From the NCBI RefSeq assembly GCF_000317045.1, contig NC_019703.1, positions 2,468,501 to 2,532,500 on the forward strand: a DNA stretch of 64,000 nucleotides. Reading direction: 5' to 3'. The notes below the pieces were generated by a model. It worked only from the letters and a program-made list of their open reading frames with translations. It had not been told where the DNA came from and made no database searches. The DNA comes from Geitlerinema sp. PCC 7407 (GTDB lineage Bacteria; Cyanobacteriota; Cyanobacteriia; PCC-7407). The position numbers and the translations under genes are program-made. Below are positions 52,098-58,737 of the stretch, piece after piece; the first letter of the stretch is position 1, and each line of letters opens with the position of its first letter.

Positions 52098-52586
52098 ATT
52101 ATCGCTAAGAAACAACTGATTAATCGACAAATCAAATCTCCTCAGGTTCTTTTGATCGATCACGAAAACAACAATCGTGGCCTGACCGATACCCGCGACG
52201 CGCTTCAGCTTGCCGAGGAAGTGGGACTTGATTTGGTCGTCGTCTCAGACGGCAAAGAAGTGCCCGTTGTAAAGATCCTGGACTACGGCAAACATCAATA
52301 TCAACAAAAGAAACGTCAGCGCCAAACCTCGCAGCCCACTGTCAAAGAAGTGAAGCTGCGACCCAACGTCGGTGAATCTGACTATAGCCTTCGCATCAAC
52401 CGGGCTGTGGAGTGGTTGGGCAAAGGCGACTCTGTGAAATTCCAGATTCGTCTGCGAGGCCGCGAGCACCAGCACCGCGATCGCGCAGCCGAGCTGCTCG
52501 ACCGGGTGGTGGCCGACCTCGGTCCCGCCGGCAAGGTGCAATCTCTTGATAAACGCGCTCTGATTGTGCAAGTGACTCCCGGCTAA
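52098..52586 (+). CDS. infC: Translation initiation factor IF-3, apparent ATT start
   Basis: A 162-residue IF-3, which binds the 30S subunit and checks initiator tRNA pairing. Conserved segments: LINRQIKSPQVLLIDHENNNRGL (N-domain), ALQLAEEVGLDLVVVSD, VPVVKILDYGKHQYQQKK linker, and C-domain VKEVKLRPNVGESDYSLRINRAVEWLGKGDSVKFQIRLRGREHQH. No ATG, GTG or TTG precedes the conserved N-domain in frame; the first TTG (52152) would delete it. ATT at 52098 has AAGAGGA just upstream with five bases from GAGG, and gives an N-terminus of normal length. AUU is the classical self-regulatory start codon of infC in enterobacteria. A terminator follows at 52660. The usual rpmI-rplT neighbours are absent. Confidence 0.9.
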   Translation: MIAKKQLINRQIKSPQVLLIDHENNNRGLTDTRDALQLAEEVGLDLVVVSDGKEVPVVKILDYGKHQYQQKKRQRQTSQPTVKEVKLRPNVGESDYSLRINRAVEWLGKGDSVKFQIRLRGREHQHRDRAAELLDRVVADLGPAGKVQSLDKRALIVQVTPG

Positions 52587-52765: not shown

Positions 52766-55651
52766 CTAGGCAGAGGCGATCGTGACTCGGCCCTCCACGC
52801 GACCAAACTGAAGATAGTGCTGGAAGCCGCTGGCAAACGCGCCGCCGTCCACCGCCGCCGCCACATCCCCATAGCGCTGGAGATAATCCGCCTCACTAAA
52901 GCCCGCGCTGGGATTGCGGCCCTCGTACTGACCAAACTCCACGTAGTGCTCGAGGGCGTTCTCGAACACGCCACCCAAGATTGCCACCGCCACATCTCGG
53001 TAAGCGCCCAGGTAGTACGCCTCGTCAAAGAGCATCACCTGGGGACCGCGCCCTTCTGCCTGGCCGAACTGGAGATAGTGCTGGAAGCCGCTGACAAACA
53101 CGCCTCCCGTCACCGCATCCGCCACGTCTGGGTTGGCCGCGAGATAGGTCTGCTCATCAAACACCGCGCTGGGATCGCGGCCTTCTGTCTGGCCGAAGTA
53201 GAGATAGTGCTGGAAGCCGCTCTCGATCGCGCCGCTGGCCACCCCCGCTGCGATATCCGGGTTTTGGCTCAGGTAGTAGTCCTCATCATAGAGAACGCTC
53301 GGATCGCGGCCCTCCCGCTGCCCAAACAGCACAAAATGCTCATAGCCACTGCGAAACGTCCCGGCCCCCACCGCGGCCGCCACGTCTGGATTGCCGGACA
53401 AATAAAACGTTTCGTCAAACAGCTTCAGCAAAGGCAGCGGCGTCGCCGGGTTGGGCAGCACCGTCGTGGTGGTGGTCGTCGTGGTCGTTTGGGTGACCTG
53501 GGGCGCACCAAAATTAGTGCCAAACAGCACCAAATCTCGGAAGCTCACCGGAGCAGTGGTTTCCGTCGTCTGGGTCACCCCCAGGTACTGCGTCTGGAAG
53601 AAGGACTGCTCGAAGTTAACATTCGCCCCGCCCAGGTTGAAAAACTGGGTGTGCTGAACATAGTTGAAAAAGCCACTCACCAAGGGCGTCGCCCCAGGGG
53701 TCGGCAAGGGAGTCGGCAGCGGCGAAGGCCCCGGCAAGCTCCCCAGATCCTGGTAGGGCAGCAGGCCCGGATCGCGAATTTCAGCGCTGGCGGTGATGCG
53801 GGCCACGTCATTGGGATCGTTGGTCAGCGGTCCGGGGAACTGGATATTGCCGCCGCCCTCCAGCAGTTGGCGCGTGGTTTGCTGCTGGACGTTGTAGGGA
53901 TTATTCGCCGTGTTGTAGGCCACGACGGACCCTGCCAGGGTGATCGCCTGGGAGCCCGCCGCGAAGCCGCCCCCGTAGGCTCCTGCTTGGTTGTAGATGA
54001 CGTCGGTGTCGCTGATGTTGACCGGATAAGTGCTGGTCGCCACGAAGATGCCGCCTCCGAGGCCGCCACCCGCCGAGTCGTCCGCCCGATTTTCAGAAAA
54101 GGTGCTGCCGCTGATGGTGACGGGGGAGGCTTCGCCGAGCCACAGACCGCCGCCTTGCTGGAGGGCCAAGTTTTGGGAAAAGACCGTGTTGCGCAGGATG
54201 AGTTCGCTGTTGCCGTGGCGCAGGCCGCCGCCTAGGGCGTCCCCGCTGGCGTTGCGCACGACGGTGTTGCCCACGATGACGCTGTCTTCGACGGTGATGC
54301 GATCGGGCAGGTAGGCGTAGAGAAACAGGCCGCCGCCCTGGCCCGCGCCGATGTTGTCCTCGAAGCGGCTGGTGCGAATGGTGATGGTGCGGCCAATGGA
54401 GCCCACGGGCGCTGCTACGTTAGCCCCGTCGGTGAAGACGGCGCCGCCGTAGCCGCTGGTGGCGGCCCCTGCGGCACCGGGGGTGGTGTCATTGGCCAGA
54501 AACGTGGAGCCCTCGATCAGCAGCTGGCTACTGACGGAGTTGATGGCGCCGCCGTTGATGCCGCGGTTGCGGGTGAAGGTGCTGCCCTGGACGGTGAGAA
54601 TGCACTGGCTGTCGGTGGCGATCGCCCCGCCGCCCCGCTCCAGGTTCGCCAAGGAGCCATCGTTGCCGGTGAACTGGCTGTTGATGATGGTCGCCTGGGT
54701 GCGGAAGCTGATGTACACACCGCCGCCAAAGCCCGCCGAGCTGTTGTTGACCTGGGTGTTTTCGAGGGTGAGCACAGCGTTTTCGCCGGTCCAGATGCCG
54801 CCGCCCGCACCCGTCGCTTCATCAGCGCCGCTGACTCGGCCATTGGCCACGATCAGGTTGCGCAGGGTGGCGGTGGTGCCGCCCGTGATCTGGAAGACGC
54901 GGCTGGCGTTGTTGCCGCTGATGGTCAGGCCCGGAGCGCCAGCGCCGTCTAGGGTGAGGGTTTTATTAATCGTGAGCTGGCCGCTGGTCAGGGTGATGGT
55001 CTGGTTGGCCAGGGCCGGAGCAAACTGGATGGTGTCGCCGGACTGGGCGATCGCCAGGGTGTCTCGCAGAGAGCCCGGACCGCTGTCTGCGGTGCTGGTC
55101 ACCGTCAGCACCGCCATCAGACCCGGATAGCTGGCCATCGCTTCGGGCCGGAGAATCTGAGGGGCGATCGCCCCCGAGAGACGATCTTCGAGGTCCCAGT
55201 TGCCGCCGCGCGCTGCGCTGCCCGTCGGGCTCGTAGACGCAAAGACCTGCACGCCGAGGCGCGATCGCAACTCCTGCACAAAGGCCGAACCGAGGGCCGT
55301 CGCCGCCACGTTGCAGCCGTACAGCACCAGGACCGCTGAGGCCGTCGCCCGCTCGAAGCTCCGCCGCAGGCGATCGCCCCAGAACGCTTCATTCTCCAGG
55401 CTCAGGACCGACGTCCCCAAGAACAGCCGCCCCGGTGCTCCGTGGGAAAAGATATGCACAGCCTCGACCCGCTCCGCCTGGTCGAGGACCTCCGCAATCT
55501 GCTCAACACCATCGCGATCGGGCGTCAAAAATGTCACATGGCCCTTGGGCAAGAGTCCCTCGACCAAATGCTGAGGAGCGTCAAGGGCCGCATCAACAAA
55601 GACGAAGTGGGTGGAAGGATAGGAGTTCATCGGGTGCTGGGTGCTGAACAT
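52766..55651 (-). CDS. DUF4347 / parallel beta-helix / 5x repeat surface protein
   Basis: A 961-residue mosaic. Residues about 13-175 match DUF4347, a domain found at the front of large cyanobacterial adhesin-like proteins; it has His70 in HIFSHG and Cys113 in LYGCNVA, a His/Cys pair reminiscent of caspase-fold peptidases. Residues about 180-640 form a parallel beta-helix (many GGG-IxxxN turns such as GGGVYI, GGGLFLY, GGGLWLG). A Pro/Thr linker includes nine consecutive Thr. The C-terminus (about 740-958) holds five repeats of roughly 43-44 residues with the pattern FDExYYLxxNPDVA-AV-GxFxSGxxHYxxFGQ-EGR. No Sec signal is seen at either possible start (55651 or 55630). Surface display is likely from the family; export route unknown. 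Confidence 0.88.
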   Translation of the reverse strand: MFSTQHPMNSYPSTHFVFVDAALDAPQHLVEGLLPKGHVTFLTPDRDGVEQIAEVLDQAERVEAVHIFSHGAPGRLFLGTSVLSLENEAFWGDRLRRSFERATASAVLVLYGCNVAATALGSAFVQELRSRLGVQVFASTSPTGSAARGGNWDLEDRLSGAIAPQILRPEAMASYPGLMAVLTVTSTADSGPGSLRDTLAIAQSGDTIQFAPALANQTITLTSGQLTINKTLTLDGAGAPGLTISGNNASRVFQITGGTTATLRNLIVANGRVSGADEATGAGGGIWTGENAVLTLENTQVNNSSAGFGGGVYISFRTQATIINSQFTGNDGSLANLERGGGAIATDSQCILTVQGSTFTRNRGINGGAINSVSSQLLIEGSTFLANDTTPGAAGAATSGYGGAVFTDGANVAAPVGSIGRTITIRTSRFEDNIGAGQGGGLFLYAYLPDRITVEDSVIVGNTVVRNASGDALGGGLRHGNSELILRNTVFSQNLALQQGGGLWLGEASPVTISGSTFSENRADDSAGGGLGGGIFVATSTYPVNISDTDVIYNQAGAYGGGFAAGSQAITLAGSVVAYNTANNPYNVQQQTTRQLLEGGGNIQFPGPLTNDPNDVARITASAEIRDPGLLPYQDLGSLPGPSPLPTPLPTPGATPLVSGFFNYVQHTQFFNLGGANVNFEQSFFQTQYLGVTQTTETTAPVSFRDLVLFGTNFGAPQVTQTTTTTTTTTVLPNPATPLPLLKLFDETFYLSGNPDVAAAVGAGTFRSGYEHFVLFGQREGRDPSVLYDEDYYLSQNPDIAAGVASGAIESGFQHYLYFGQTEGRDPSAVFDEQTYLAANPDVADAVTGGVFVSGFQHYLQFGQAEGRGPQVMLFDEAYYLGAYRDVAVAILGGVFENALEHYVEFGQYEGRNPSAGFSEADYLQRYGDVAAAVDGGAFASGFQHYLQFGRVEGRVTIASA

Positions 55652-55900: not shown

Positions 55901-57223
55901 GTGAGCGATCGCCTAACCCGGATCTACAACTCCTTCGATCCATCTCGTCCCCTGCCCGCTGGCGACCCCCAGTACATCGACTGCCGCGAGGTGCGGGGCG
56001 ACGAAGACATTGTCAGCGACCTCGGGAAGCGCATCCGCAACTCAGACCAGATGACCTACCAGCTCTACACCGGTCACCGAGGCAGCGGCAAGTCTACCGA
56101 GCTGCGACGCCTGCAAAAAAGCCTCGAAGAGCACGGGTTCTTTGTGGTGTATTTCGAGGCAGACGAAGAAGATATTGATCCCCAGAATGTCGAATATATC
56201 GATATTTTGCTGGCCTGCACCCGCCGATTTCTCAAGGAGATGCACACCCTCGGTGATGCTGGCCCCATCCGGCGCTGGCTCCAAGACCGCTGGCAAGAGC
56301 TCAAAGATCTGGCCCAGATGGAGCTATCGGTCGAAAAAATCAGCCTCGATCAGGCGCTCTCGGTCTTCACCAAGCTCACCGCCAGCATTCGCGCCGAGCC
56401 CTCCCAGCGCAGCAAGATCCGCGAAAAGGTGAATCCCCACACCACGACTCTGTTAGCGGCCCTGAATGAATTTATTGCCGATGCGCGCCAGCATCTCCCC
56501 AACGGCAAGACAAAGCTAGCCATGATCGTCGATAACCTCGACCGAATCCCCATTGATTTTCGGGACAATGGCCGCAGCAATCATGAAGAGATCTTTCTCG
56601 ATCGCAGCGAGCAGCTCCGGGGCCTGGACTGCCACATGGTCTACACGGTCCCCATTGCTCTGGTCTACTCCCGCTGGGCCAACGACGTACAAACTATCTA
56701 CGGCAAAACCCTGGTTCTCCCGATGGTGATGGTCCAGCATCTCACGGGCGGCCCGCACTCAGTGGGCTTGGGCAAGCTGCGAGAGGCGATTCAGGTGCGG
56801 GTGCAGCCCCACGCCGCCGATCTCGACCTGGAAACGGAGGTTTTCGACAGTGCAGAAACGCTGGAGCGGCTTTGTCTGGCCTGCGGCGGCCACATCCGGG
56901 AGCTGATGCAGATGATGCAGGAGGCGGTCAACCGGATCGATGAGCTGCCTATCACGGCAAAGGCGGTGCAACGGGCGATCGCGGAATTGCGCCAAGTCTA
57001 TCAGCGGGCTGTGGAGGAGTCGGAGTGGGAGCGCCTCGCCCAAGTTGCCCTCAGCCACAAAATCCCCAATGACAATGAGCATCGCGGCCTGCTCCAGCGG
57101 CGCTGCATTCTGGAGTATCGCTGTCTGGACGAGGAGGGCGAAATCCTAACGTGGTATGACGCCCATCCGCTGATATACAAGCTACCCAGGTTCGCGGAGG
57201 AACTCGCTAAACTAAAAGCATGA
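55901..57223 (+). CDS. P-loop ATPase, first gene of an ATPase-TPR module
   Basis: A 440-residue cytoplasmic NTPase. GTG start at 55901, with GAGG ten bases upstream. A lead region (IYNSFDPSRPLPAGDPQYIDCREVRGDEDI) precedes the intact Walker A GHRGSGKST (Gly58-Ser65), then VVYFEADEEDID. Walker B is KLAMIVDNLDRIP (Asp211, Asp214). A sensor-like strand CHMVYTVPIALVYS and a helical lid (ETLERLCLACGGHIRELMQMMQEAVNRI) follow. The layout is that of AAA+/STAND ATPases, such as Cdc6/Orc-like or pNACHT groups. The C-terminus (YRCLDEEGEILTWYDAHPLI) resembles a winged-helix end. It overlaps the next gene by four bases (ATGA). I do not recognise a named family; the pair may be a regulatory, conflict or defence module, which is inference. 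Confidence 0.85.
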   Translation: MSDRLTRIYNSFDPSRPLPAGDPQYIDCREVRGDEDIVSDLGKRIRNSDQMTYQLYTGHRGSGKSTELRRLQKSLEEHGFFVVYFEADEEDIDPQNVEYIDILLACTRRFLKEMHTLGDAGPIRRWLQDRWQELKDLAQMELSVEKISLDQALSVFTKLTASIRAEPSQRSKIREKVNPHTTTLLAALNEFIADARQHLPNGKTKLAMIVDNLDRIPIDFRDNGRSNHEEIFLDRSEQLRGLDCHMVYTVPIALVYSRWANDVQTIYGKTLVLPMVMVQHLTGGPHSVGLGKLREAIQVRVQPHAADLDLETEVFDSAETLERLCLACGGHIRELMQMMQEAVNRIDELPITAKAVQRAIAELRQVYQRAVEESEWERLAQVALSHKIPNDNEHRGLLQRRCILEYRCLDEEGEILTWYDAHPLIYKLPRFAEELAKLKA

Positions 57224-58737
57224 CGACAGATTCCTTTGACTGGGATGATGAGCTGCCTCCGGAGACTGAGGAGGAGGTCTATCGAGCACTGCTGCGGGCA
57301 CTGCGTCGCAAGCAGGGTTTTGGCCTGTTTTTTGTGCAGTGCACCCCAGCCCAAGGCAAAAAAATCGTTGCGAATCTGCGTCGAGACTTAGCCCAGCAGC
57401 GGATCGAGGAGATGCACCTCGAGGGTGAGGTTTTGACCCTCTATGATCGGTTGACTGCTCTGTGGAAAGCCCAGCCCTTTGATGTGCTGATCGTGGAGGG
57501 GCTGCAACATTCTCTCTACGCCTACGAAGATACAAAGCGCTTTAGCGGCTGGAGCAGCAGCGAAATTTATAACTACAGCTGGAAAGGGGTTCCCCAAATT
57601 TTGAACCACCTGAACCAGCAGCGCGAACGTCTACGCGATGAGTTTCCAGCGCGCTTTGTTTTCTTAGTGCCGCCTTTTGTGGTGGACTATTTCATCCAGC
57701 GCGCTGCGGATTTTCTGGACTGGCGATCGGGCCTTTTTCGCTTTCCCCGCGATCCCCAAGACGTCCTGAAAGAAGCTAAATTTTTAGTTGATGAGCATGA
57801 TTTTGAACAATACTTTAAGCTGAGTTTTCAAGAACGAGTTGCTAAAACCTTGGAACTCAAAACCTCTTTGCAAGCCCTAGAAGATTTATCAGATAGAGCC
57901 CCAACAACTCAAAGCATATCATTACTTCCTACACTAGATTACCAGGTCGATATTGCATTTGATCTCAGTCATCTCTTTATGCTAGAAGGAGATTATAAGA
58001 GCGTAATTACTAGTCTAAATAAAGTTTTGCATTTGAATCCAAACTCTTATTTAGCTTGGATCAATCGAGGAGTTGCTTTTAGCTATTTAGGTCAGTATGA
58101 AGATGCACTTGTTAGCTTTGGTAAAGCTATAAAGCTAGACTCTCATGATAGCGCAGCTTGCTTCAATCAAGGAGTTGCCCTTAGCCATTTAGGCCGATAT
58201 GAAGATGCACTTATCAGCTTTGATAAAGCCATAAAACTGGACCCGAATGATAGCGCAGCTTGGTTCAATCGAGGGTTTTCGCTTTACAGACTAGACCGCT
58301 ATGAAGATGCAGTTATTAGTTTTGACGATACATTACGCCTGAATTCAAATGACTATCTAGCCTGGACTATTCGAGGAATTTCTCTTGATACATTAGGATA
58401 TTATGAGGATGCGATTTTTAGCCTTGATAGTGCTTTGAAAATTAAATCAGATTTCCACATGGCCTGGATCGGCCGGGGAATTTCATTTGACAATCTAGGT
58501 CATTATGACGATGCAATTAGTAGTTACGAGAGATCTCTTGAATTAGATCCAGACTTTCACCCAATTTGGTTTTTAAAGGCTGGCTGCCATGGATTGCAAG
58601 CTCAGGCTGATTTGGCGATCGCCTCTCTACAAAAAGCGATCGCCCTCGACACTAAATATAAAGAGATGGCAAGAACCGATAGTGACTTTGATGCCATCCG
58701 AGAAGATGAGCGATTTCAGGCGCTACTGAGAGAATAA
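57220..58737 (+). CDS. Degenerate P-loop plus seven-TPR protein, second gene of the module
   Basis: A 505-residue protein translationally coupled to the ATPase gene. Its N-terminal 240 residues look like a decayed NTPase domain: GFGLFFVQCTPAQGKK stands where Walker A should be (CTPAQGKK at 41-48, lacking the Ser/Thr), VLIVEGL (89-95) replaces Walker B, and ARFVFLVPPFVVDYFI is a sensor-like strand. From about 243 to 480 there are seven consecutive 34-residue tetratricopeptide repeats (for example SYLAWINRGVAFSYLGQYED, DSAAWFNRGFSLYRLDRYED). The end, TDSDFDAIREDERFQALL, is a common TPR-protein terminus. The TPR half is AT-rich and has almost no HIP1, unlike the N-terminal half. TPRs probably sense or hold a protein partner for the ATPase. 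Confidence 0.85.
   Translation: MTTDSFDWDDELPPETEEEVYRALLRALRRKQGFGLFFVQCTPAQGKKIVANLRRDLAQQRIEEMHLEGEVLTLYDRLTALWKAQPFDVLIVEGLQHSLYAYEDTKRFSGWSSSEIYNYSWKGVPQILNHLNQQRERLRDEFPARFVFLVPPFVVDYFIQRAADFLDWRSGLFRFPRDPQDVLKEAKFLVDEHDFEQYFKLSFQERVAKTLELKTSLQALEDLSDRAPTTQSISLLPTLDYQVDIAFDLSHLFMLEGDYKSVITSLNKVLHLNPNSYLAWINRGVAFSYLGQYEDALVSFGKAIKLDSHDSAACFNQGVALSHLGRYEDALISFDKAIKLDPNDSAAWFNRGFSLYRLDRYEDAVISFDDTLRLNSNDYLAWTIRGISLDTLGYYEDAIFSLDSALKIKSDFHMAWIGRGISFDNLGHYDDAISSYERSLELDPDFHPIWFLKAGCHGLQAQADLAIASLQKAIALDTKYKEMARTDSDFDAIREDERFQALLRE

Follow-up and report, generated by a model that had tools for sequence, protein, structure and literature searches.

The closest published design to the gene pair described here appears to be the predicted two-gene nSTAND2 system, a predicted mobile operon that encodes an active and an eroded STAND module, the inactive one with a variable C-terminal part (PMC8195603, Fig. 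6C). The products of that operon are predicted to form a hetero-multimer with a conserved arginine finger, and inactive STAND domains have been proposed to act as nucleic-acid receptors (PMC8195603). The pair studied here lies in a stretch of 64,000 nucleotides (the window) from the chromosome of the cyanobacterium Geitlerinema sp. PCC 7407 and consists of gene 1, which encodes a P-loop ATPase, and gene 2, which encodes a domain without a usable P-loop followed by an array of TPRs. It shares with the nSTAND2 system the adjacent active and inactive STAND/AAA+ modules. However, the inactive nSTAND2 protein carries effectors (mostly GT4 or HEPN), whereas gene 2 carries only TPRs and its counterpart in a sister branch carries nSTAND1-WD40. 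There is no detectable sequence homology between gene 1 and gene 2, and the likeness to nSTAND2 is one of described design.

Three further groups of systems resemble the pair in part. The MoxR-vWA ternary systems iSTAND and iSTAND2 (Kaur et al. 2020, 2021) are concentrated in cyanobacteria and have an inactive STAND module as their predicted sensing component, but MoxR and vWA genes form part of their loci. Neither is encoded in the flanks of the window pair, in which the inactive partner is paired instead with one active STAND-like ATPase. Avs and the bacterial NLR-like STAND proteins share the logic of a STAND ATPase combined with a TPR sensor, but Avs is a single polypeptide with an N-terminal effector whereas the window pair splits ATPase and sensor and includes no effector. 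The TPR and WD arrays of fungal NLRs (PMC4986451) are, like the gene 2 arrays, marked by high internal conservation and changes in repeat number, though the organisms and the NTPase family are different. A literature search found no paper naming the gene 1/gene 2 pair. A preliminary description of the window, made from the letters of the sequence, had stated that no named system has exactly this pairing, and this was nearly right, except that nSTAND2 is a close conceptual precedent (PMC8195603). On balance, we favour the reading that the pair is a two-protein switch of the STAND/ORC type with an exchangeable sensor.

The two open reading frames are both on the forward strand. Gene 1 occupies positions 55901-57223 (GTG start, 440 aa) and gene 2 positions 57220-58737 (ATG start, 505 aa), and they overlap by ATGA at 57220-57223. 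No promoter or terminator scoring above shuffled sequences was found in a scan. The gene 1 protein matches the Pfam families AAA_16 (3e-7) and AAA_22 (6e-6) and includes a Walker A motif, GHRGSGKST (aa 58-66, positions 56072-56098), and a Walker B motif, LAMIVDNLDR (aa 206-215, positions 56516-56545). In 61 homologues, G58, G61, G63, K64, D211 and L213 are invariant and the Walker B residues N212, D214 and R215 are found in at least 90 %. Gene 1 would be expected to hydrolyse ATP. An AlphaFold2 model of gene 1 was of high quality (predicted local distance difference test score, pLDDT, 93.5), and supports well its assignment as an ORC/STAND-like AAA+ ATPase. A weak match of the P-loop half to NF047389 (P-loop ATPase, Sll1717 family; 9.6e-6) was rejected as an assignment because it scored only 25 bits where the cut-off is 75, and a sequence search for relatives of solved structure returned none that was useful.

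The structural neighbours of the gene 1 model are TnsC (Z 15.4), the archaeal ATPases SSO1545 and PABY2304 (Z 15), ORC/Cdc6 (Z 13-15), CED-4 (Z 13-14) and NRC4 (Z 12.7-14.5). As these values are close together, STAND and ORC/TnsC proteins are not separable by Z values alone. The presence of TnsC and ORC/Cdc6 among the best neighbours, together with the proposal that inactive STAND domains receive nucleic acids, would suit a DNA-bound module comparable to replication initiators and Tn7-like transposons, with gene 1 loaded onto DNA or RNA and other proteins brought in by gene 2. We regard such a module as very improbable, since SSO1545, CED-4 and NRC4 are equally similar to gene 1 and the surveyed loci include no recurrent transposase or replication gene, scattered TnpB aside. 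Of the features that characterize STAND proteins, gene 1 includes the intact Walker A and Walker B motifs in a P-loop NTPase, but the NTPase and the superstructure-forming repeats are not in one polypeptide. It is the partner gene that carries the repeats, pointing to a split-STAND-like way of working, and we do not claim membership of the STAND class. For a further such feature, an AAA+ core with a C-terminal helical/winged-helix region as in CED-4 and the NLRs, the gene 1 model scored alike with CED-4 and NRC4 (Z 12-15) and with ORC and TnsC. With that reservation, the STAND-like design put forward in the preliminary description agrees with the resemblance of the gene 1 model to CED-4, NRC4, ORC and TnsC (Z 12-15 overall) and with the nSTAND1-WD40 and TIR domains of sister systems described below; the gene boundaries, the ATGA overlap, the intact Walker motifs and the pairing of an active with an inactive NTPase that it recorded were likewise all recovered.

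The first 230 residues of gene 2 (positions 57220-57909) have no sequence match in Pfam, NCBIfam, PADLOC or the PDB. An AlphaFold2 model built from an alignment of 57 homologues (pLDDT 86) has AAA+ ATPases (p97, ORC, TnsC, RFC and dynein) as its neighbours, with Z of about 11 over about 140 residues, and the Foldseek matches of this domain include Avs4. On the basis of this model, the N-terminus of gene 2 is an AAA+-fold domain without a usable P-loop, and an unrelated fold, which the preliminary description had named as the outcome that would speak against its proposal, was rejected. Where the P-loop would stand, gene 2 has CTPAQGKK (aa 41-48, positions 57340-57363). GK[ST] was not found at this position in any of 29 of the 57 aligned homologues, and a count by position in about 160 sequences gave S/T/N-P/Y-A/E. 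Hence, a non-P-loop motif is conserved, CTPAQGKK is not a recent pseudogene lesion and, as the reading frame is also conserved, the possibility that gene 2 is a pseudogene was rejected. The same domain had been described as a matching but decayed nucleotide-binding half, which is correct for fold and position but not for sequence homology, as an hhalign comparison of the profiles of gene 1 and the gene 2 domain gave a probability of only 1.6 %. This also speaks against recent duplication as the origin of the two genes, and the active/inactive pair is a matter of fold and pairing and not of a visible recent duplication.

The remainder of gene 2 includes seven 34-residue TPR units (about aa 246-479, positions 57955-58656), counted by eye in agreement with the earlier count and matching Pfam TPR_1 (E=1e-45). 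A conserved C-terminal cap (TDSDFDAIREDERFQALL, positions 58657-58734), an ending common to most homologues, is supported by a match to NF047558 (TPR_END_plus, aa 450-503).

The distribution of the pair was examined in 340 cyanobacterial genomes. Relatives of gene 1 were found in 180 and relatives of gene 2 in 191, with both present in 174 and neither in 143. Presence is patchy (about half of the genomes) and there can be several copies per genome. Among 90 close relatives of gene 1, referred to here as subfamily A, 85 have the gene 2 domain encoded directly downstream on the same strand. Chance adjacency can therefore be rejected, and the conservation of gene neighbourhood that the preliminary description had suggested examining is far above chance. 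The exact 4-nucleotide overlap is retained in 45 of 110 non-redundant pairs, and across these 110 pairs the protein distances of gene 1 and gene 2 are correlated (r=0.92), part of which is species history. On a tree of gene 1 proteins, subfamily A forms one group (94/97), in which the gene from the window groups with those from two genomes of other families. Outside the cyanobacteria, where only plasmid records yielded a case, a diverged pair was found on a plasmid of Acidisarcina (Acidobacteriota; L201 5992-8924), in which a protein matching the gene 1 profile (E=9e-51) is followed by one matching the gene 2 profile (E=2.7e-8) with TPRs; nearby are another TPR gene and a CHAT-domain gene in whose sequence a P-loop region is also present. 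The pair is, hence, a widespread, unnamed two-gene module. At one further locus (L100:5788-8166), a gene 1 relative has a C-terminal extension and its downstream neighbour is, in place of gene 2, a gene for a 200 aa protein with no Pfam match, possibly a replacement of the partner.

Some genomes include orphan relatives of gene 2 that have no adjacent gene 1, and the comparison of these with paired copies identified two pairing-associated motifs. The first is N132-xx-R135-xxx-R139 (positions 57613-57636) and the second R161-A-x-D-F-x-x-W-R-S-G (positions 57700-57732). In 123 paired subfamily A domains, N132, R135, R161, A162, D164, F165 and W168 are each present in 100 %. In 23 orphan domains, N132 was found in none, R135 in one and R161 in two (W168 is not among the residues listed for the orphans), but positions of the core, C41 and F148 among them, were retained. 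Extra gene 2 copies that adjoin a pair also retain the motif. A motif that is invariant in paired copies and mostly lost from orphans is the pattern expected of a surface that contacts gene 1, and the inactive domain of gene 2 probably contacts and regulates gene 1. In AAA+ proteins, the arginine finger sits where the helix linking strands 4 and 5 ends. R161 occupies this place in the AlphaFold2 model of the gene 2 domain, making a trans-acting arginine the natural reading, though in the sister branch the arginine is shifted by one residue. Other arrangements of the domain were also seen. The Geitlerinema genome itself includes a diverged standalone relative (L257:3043-5649, C1:1841042-1843648; ...SPEFWRWRSGVFEF...) with TPRs and no recognized gene 1-type ATPase alongside, one gene 2 relative has two tandem pseudo-AAA+ domains (L073:8768-12136), and in another the profile of the gene 2 domain matches more than once (L106:6912-10670).

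The two parts of gene 2 differ in their composition and in their relationship to homologues. Residues 1-185 have a GC content at third codon positions (GC3) of 0.62 and share 76-79 % identity with the two nearest homologues. In contrast, residues 186-450 (positions 57775-58569), which take in the last part of the linker and the bulk of the TPR array, are compositionally foreign, with a GC3 of 0.28, and share only 36-47 % identity with the same homologues, which are 71-79 % identical to one another in the TPR part; as the arrays compared differ in length, the register of these alignments is uncertain. This GC3 is the lowest among 336 stretches of 265 codons in the window, where most long open reading frames have values of 0.65-0.86 and the genome-typical value is near 0.77. 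Twenty other TPR genes in this genome have a mean GC3 of 0.78 (range 0.57-0.97), indicating that TPRs are not intrinsically AT-rich in Geitlerinema sp. PCC 7407. The same division was seen across 93 pairs, where the GC3 of the gene 2 N-terminal domain follows that of gene 1 (slope 0.90, r 0.94) and the GC3 of the TPR part does so far less (slope 0.31, r 0.46). In a small check of four other genomes, rough in that some frames were mis-set, ordinary TPR genes tracked host composition. TPR units that are at least 90 % identical in DNA are found in the arrays of 52 of 99 relatives, and 44 of 130 arrays passed a test for high internal conservation adapted from that applied to fungal NLRs (PMC4986451); the array in the window is less uniform (0.83 in DNA and 0.64 in protein). 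From these patterns, gene 2 is a mosaic, in which a constant part is inherited with gene 1 and the sensor appears to be re-amplified and exchanged between genomes. Cassette import would account for the foreign TPR block, and the behaviour of the array as a cassette suggests that the TPRs sense a ligand.

A rival explanation for the low GC3 is that the TPR block is a locally AT-biased or decaying part of a gene that is losing its function. AT content could rise through decay, and no recent donor of the block was found among the 340 genomes, the best matches being short stretches of 64-79 % identity, several of them to other gene 2 arrays. The low GC3 could partly reflect forces besides import. 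A search for the block elsewhere in the Geitlerinema genome showed it to be single-copy. We nevertheless judge decay to be quite improbable. The frame is unbroken, all seven TPR units are complete, and the other twenty TPR genes of the genome keep a high GC3. In addition, GC3 drops from gene 1 to the TPRs in other high-GC hosts (from 0.73 to 0.31 and from 0.70 to 0.34) and rises in low-GC hosts, and a rise is not predicted by decay.

A second gene 1 subfamily, with about 36 % identity to the first, has a much longer partner gene. This encodes, in order, the same pseudo-AAA+ domain in a shorter form, repeats that resemble TPRs, an active nSTAND1 NTPase (PF20703, 6e-39), in most cases a transmembrane segment, and WD40 propellers. 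At one locus (L106:4735-6825), gene 1 and the nSTAND1-type gene 2 are separated by an additional gene 1 paralogue with a TIR domain (1.2e-31) fused at its C-terminus, which may be a third component that bears an effector. On a conjugative Acaryochloris plasmid, the sister-branch form adjoins NB-ARC, TIR and TPR genes. On plasmid p057_J of Nostoc sp. C057 (L202 5397-9269), a SAV_2336 N-terminal domain is fused to a gene 1-like ATPase with an intact Walker A motif; this gene adjoins a MoxR ATPase gene, with an FGE-domain gene further on, and the locus looks like a MoxR-type conflict system that uses the gene 1 ATPase family. Kaur et al. described conflict systems that have contexts such as these (PMC7159879, PMC8195603). 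The nSTAND1-transmembrane-WD40 partners, the TIR fusion and the plasmid copy beside NB-ARC, TIR and TPR genes provide the link to conflict and, arguing from these relatives, we put a role for the pair in phage or self/non-self conflict at a little short of an even chance.

Several observations weigh against the favoured switch and its part in conflict. The window pair includes no effector domain, and its flanks are ordinary, encoding a DUF4347 protein, NIL, sulfate ABC permeases and binding protein, ChrA, IF-3 and an amine oxidase. The preliminary description had raised proximity to defence genes, and this was not borne out. PADLOC genes were not clearly commoner near family A pairs than at least 4 kb away (90 near versus 90 far neighbours, a small sample), and PADLOC-DB 2.0.0 gave no strong defence-model match, the best for gene 1 being to PDC-S20 (2.3e-6, P-loop half only) and those for gene 2 being generic TPR matches only. 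At the search sensitivity used, neither INPHARED nor IMG/VR yielded a phage or viral copy, and many copies in the Nostocales are at one stable, conserved chromosomal position. The Fisher value for the co-occurrence of the two genes is tiny, but the test ignores phylogeny and genome size, and the orphan domains look like one clade, such that loss of the pairing motif may have been a single event. The missing effector, the flanks, the lack of a defence-island signal and the stable position in the Nostocales, together with the persistence of orphan gene 2 relatives as chromosomal genes, including the diverged one in the Geitlerinema genome, would all suit a non-immune AAA+ adaptor or remodelling pair, in which gene 1 is the ATPase that remodels, gene 2 serves as receptor for its substrates, and cellular clients in stress physiology or complex assembly are bound by the TPRs. 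An adaptor pair of this kind is, in our view, unlikely, as swapped and freshly amplified TPR arrays would not be usual in receptors whose housekeeping clients are fixed, and neither the patchy presence and multiple copies nor the nSTAND1, WD40 and TIR domains of the sister systems fit easily with it.

Two of the neighbouring genes merit comment in their own right. The DUF4347 gene (positions 52766-55651, reverse strand), which is upstream of gene 1, encodes a surface-type protein of 961 aa with C-terminal tandem repeats (FDExYYLxxNPDVAAAV...). The IF-3-like gene (positions 52152-52586) is a second, shortened one that includes both IF3 domains. Copies with 72-76 % identity to it were found in only 3 of 12 cyanobacteria, each of which also has a gene with about 47 % identity. 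As a patchy second paralogue, it is not usable as a housekeeping yardstick for lateral transfer, and we claim no such transfer for the pair.

If the pair is the two-protein switch that we favour, gene 1 would bind and hydrolyse ATP, and the pseudo-AAA+ domain of gene 2, itself unable to do either, would dock on gene 1 via the conserved patch, probably placing R161 at or near the ATP site of gene 1. Gene 2 would in this way hold or license the assembly of gene 1. The TPR array would be the sensor, a cassette that is exchanged and amplified anew beside an unchanging pair of ATPase-fold domains, and binding of a ligand by the TPRs would shift the hetero-oligomer, sending a signal to an effector encoded elsewhere. 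A stronger version, which we consider doubtful, is that the pair is an unrecognised immune or self-recognition system found across phyla. The pseudo-AAA+ receptor would then gate the active ATPase by providing an arginine in trans, and the TPR sensor would be a cassette that moves independently between genomes, making the pair in effect a split bacterial NLR with recognition arrays exchanged horizontally.

If the favoured reading is right, roughly half of cyanobacterial genomes would carry an uncharacterised split NLR-like switch of one or other subfamily. As more than 100 natural alleles record a constant part and an exchangeable sensor, both the ligand of the sensor and the gating by the inactive partner would be open to direct test, and the family would provide a clean case of recognition arrays that move between genomes apart from the signalling core.

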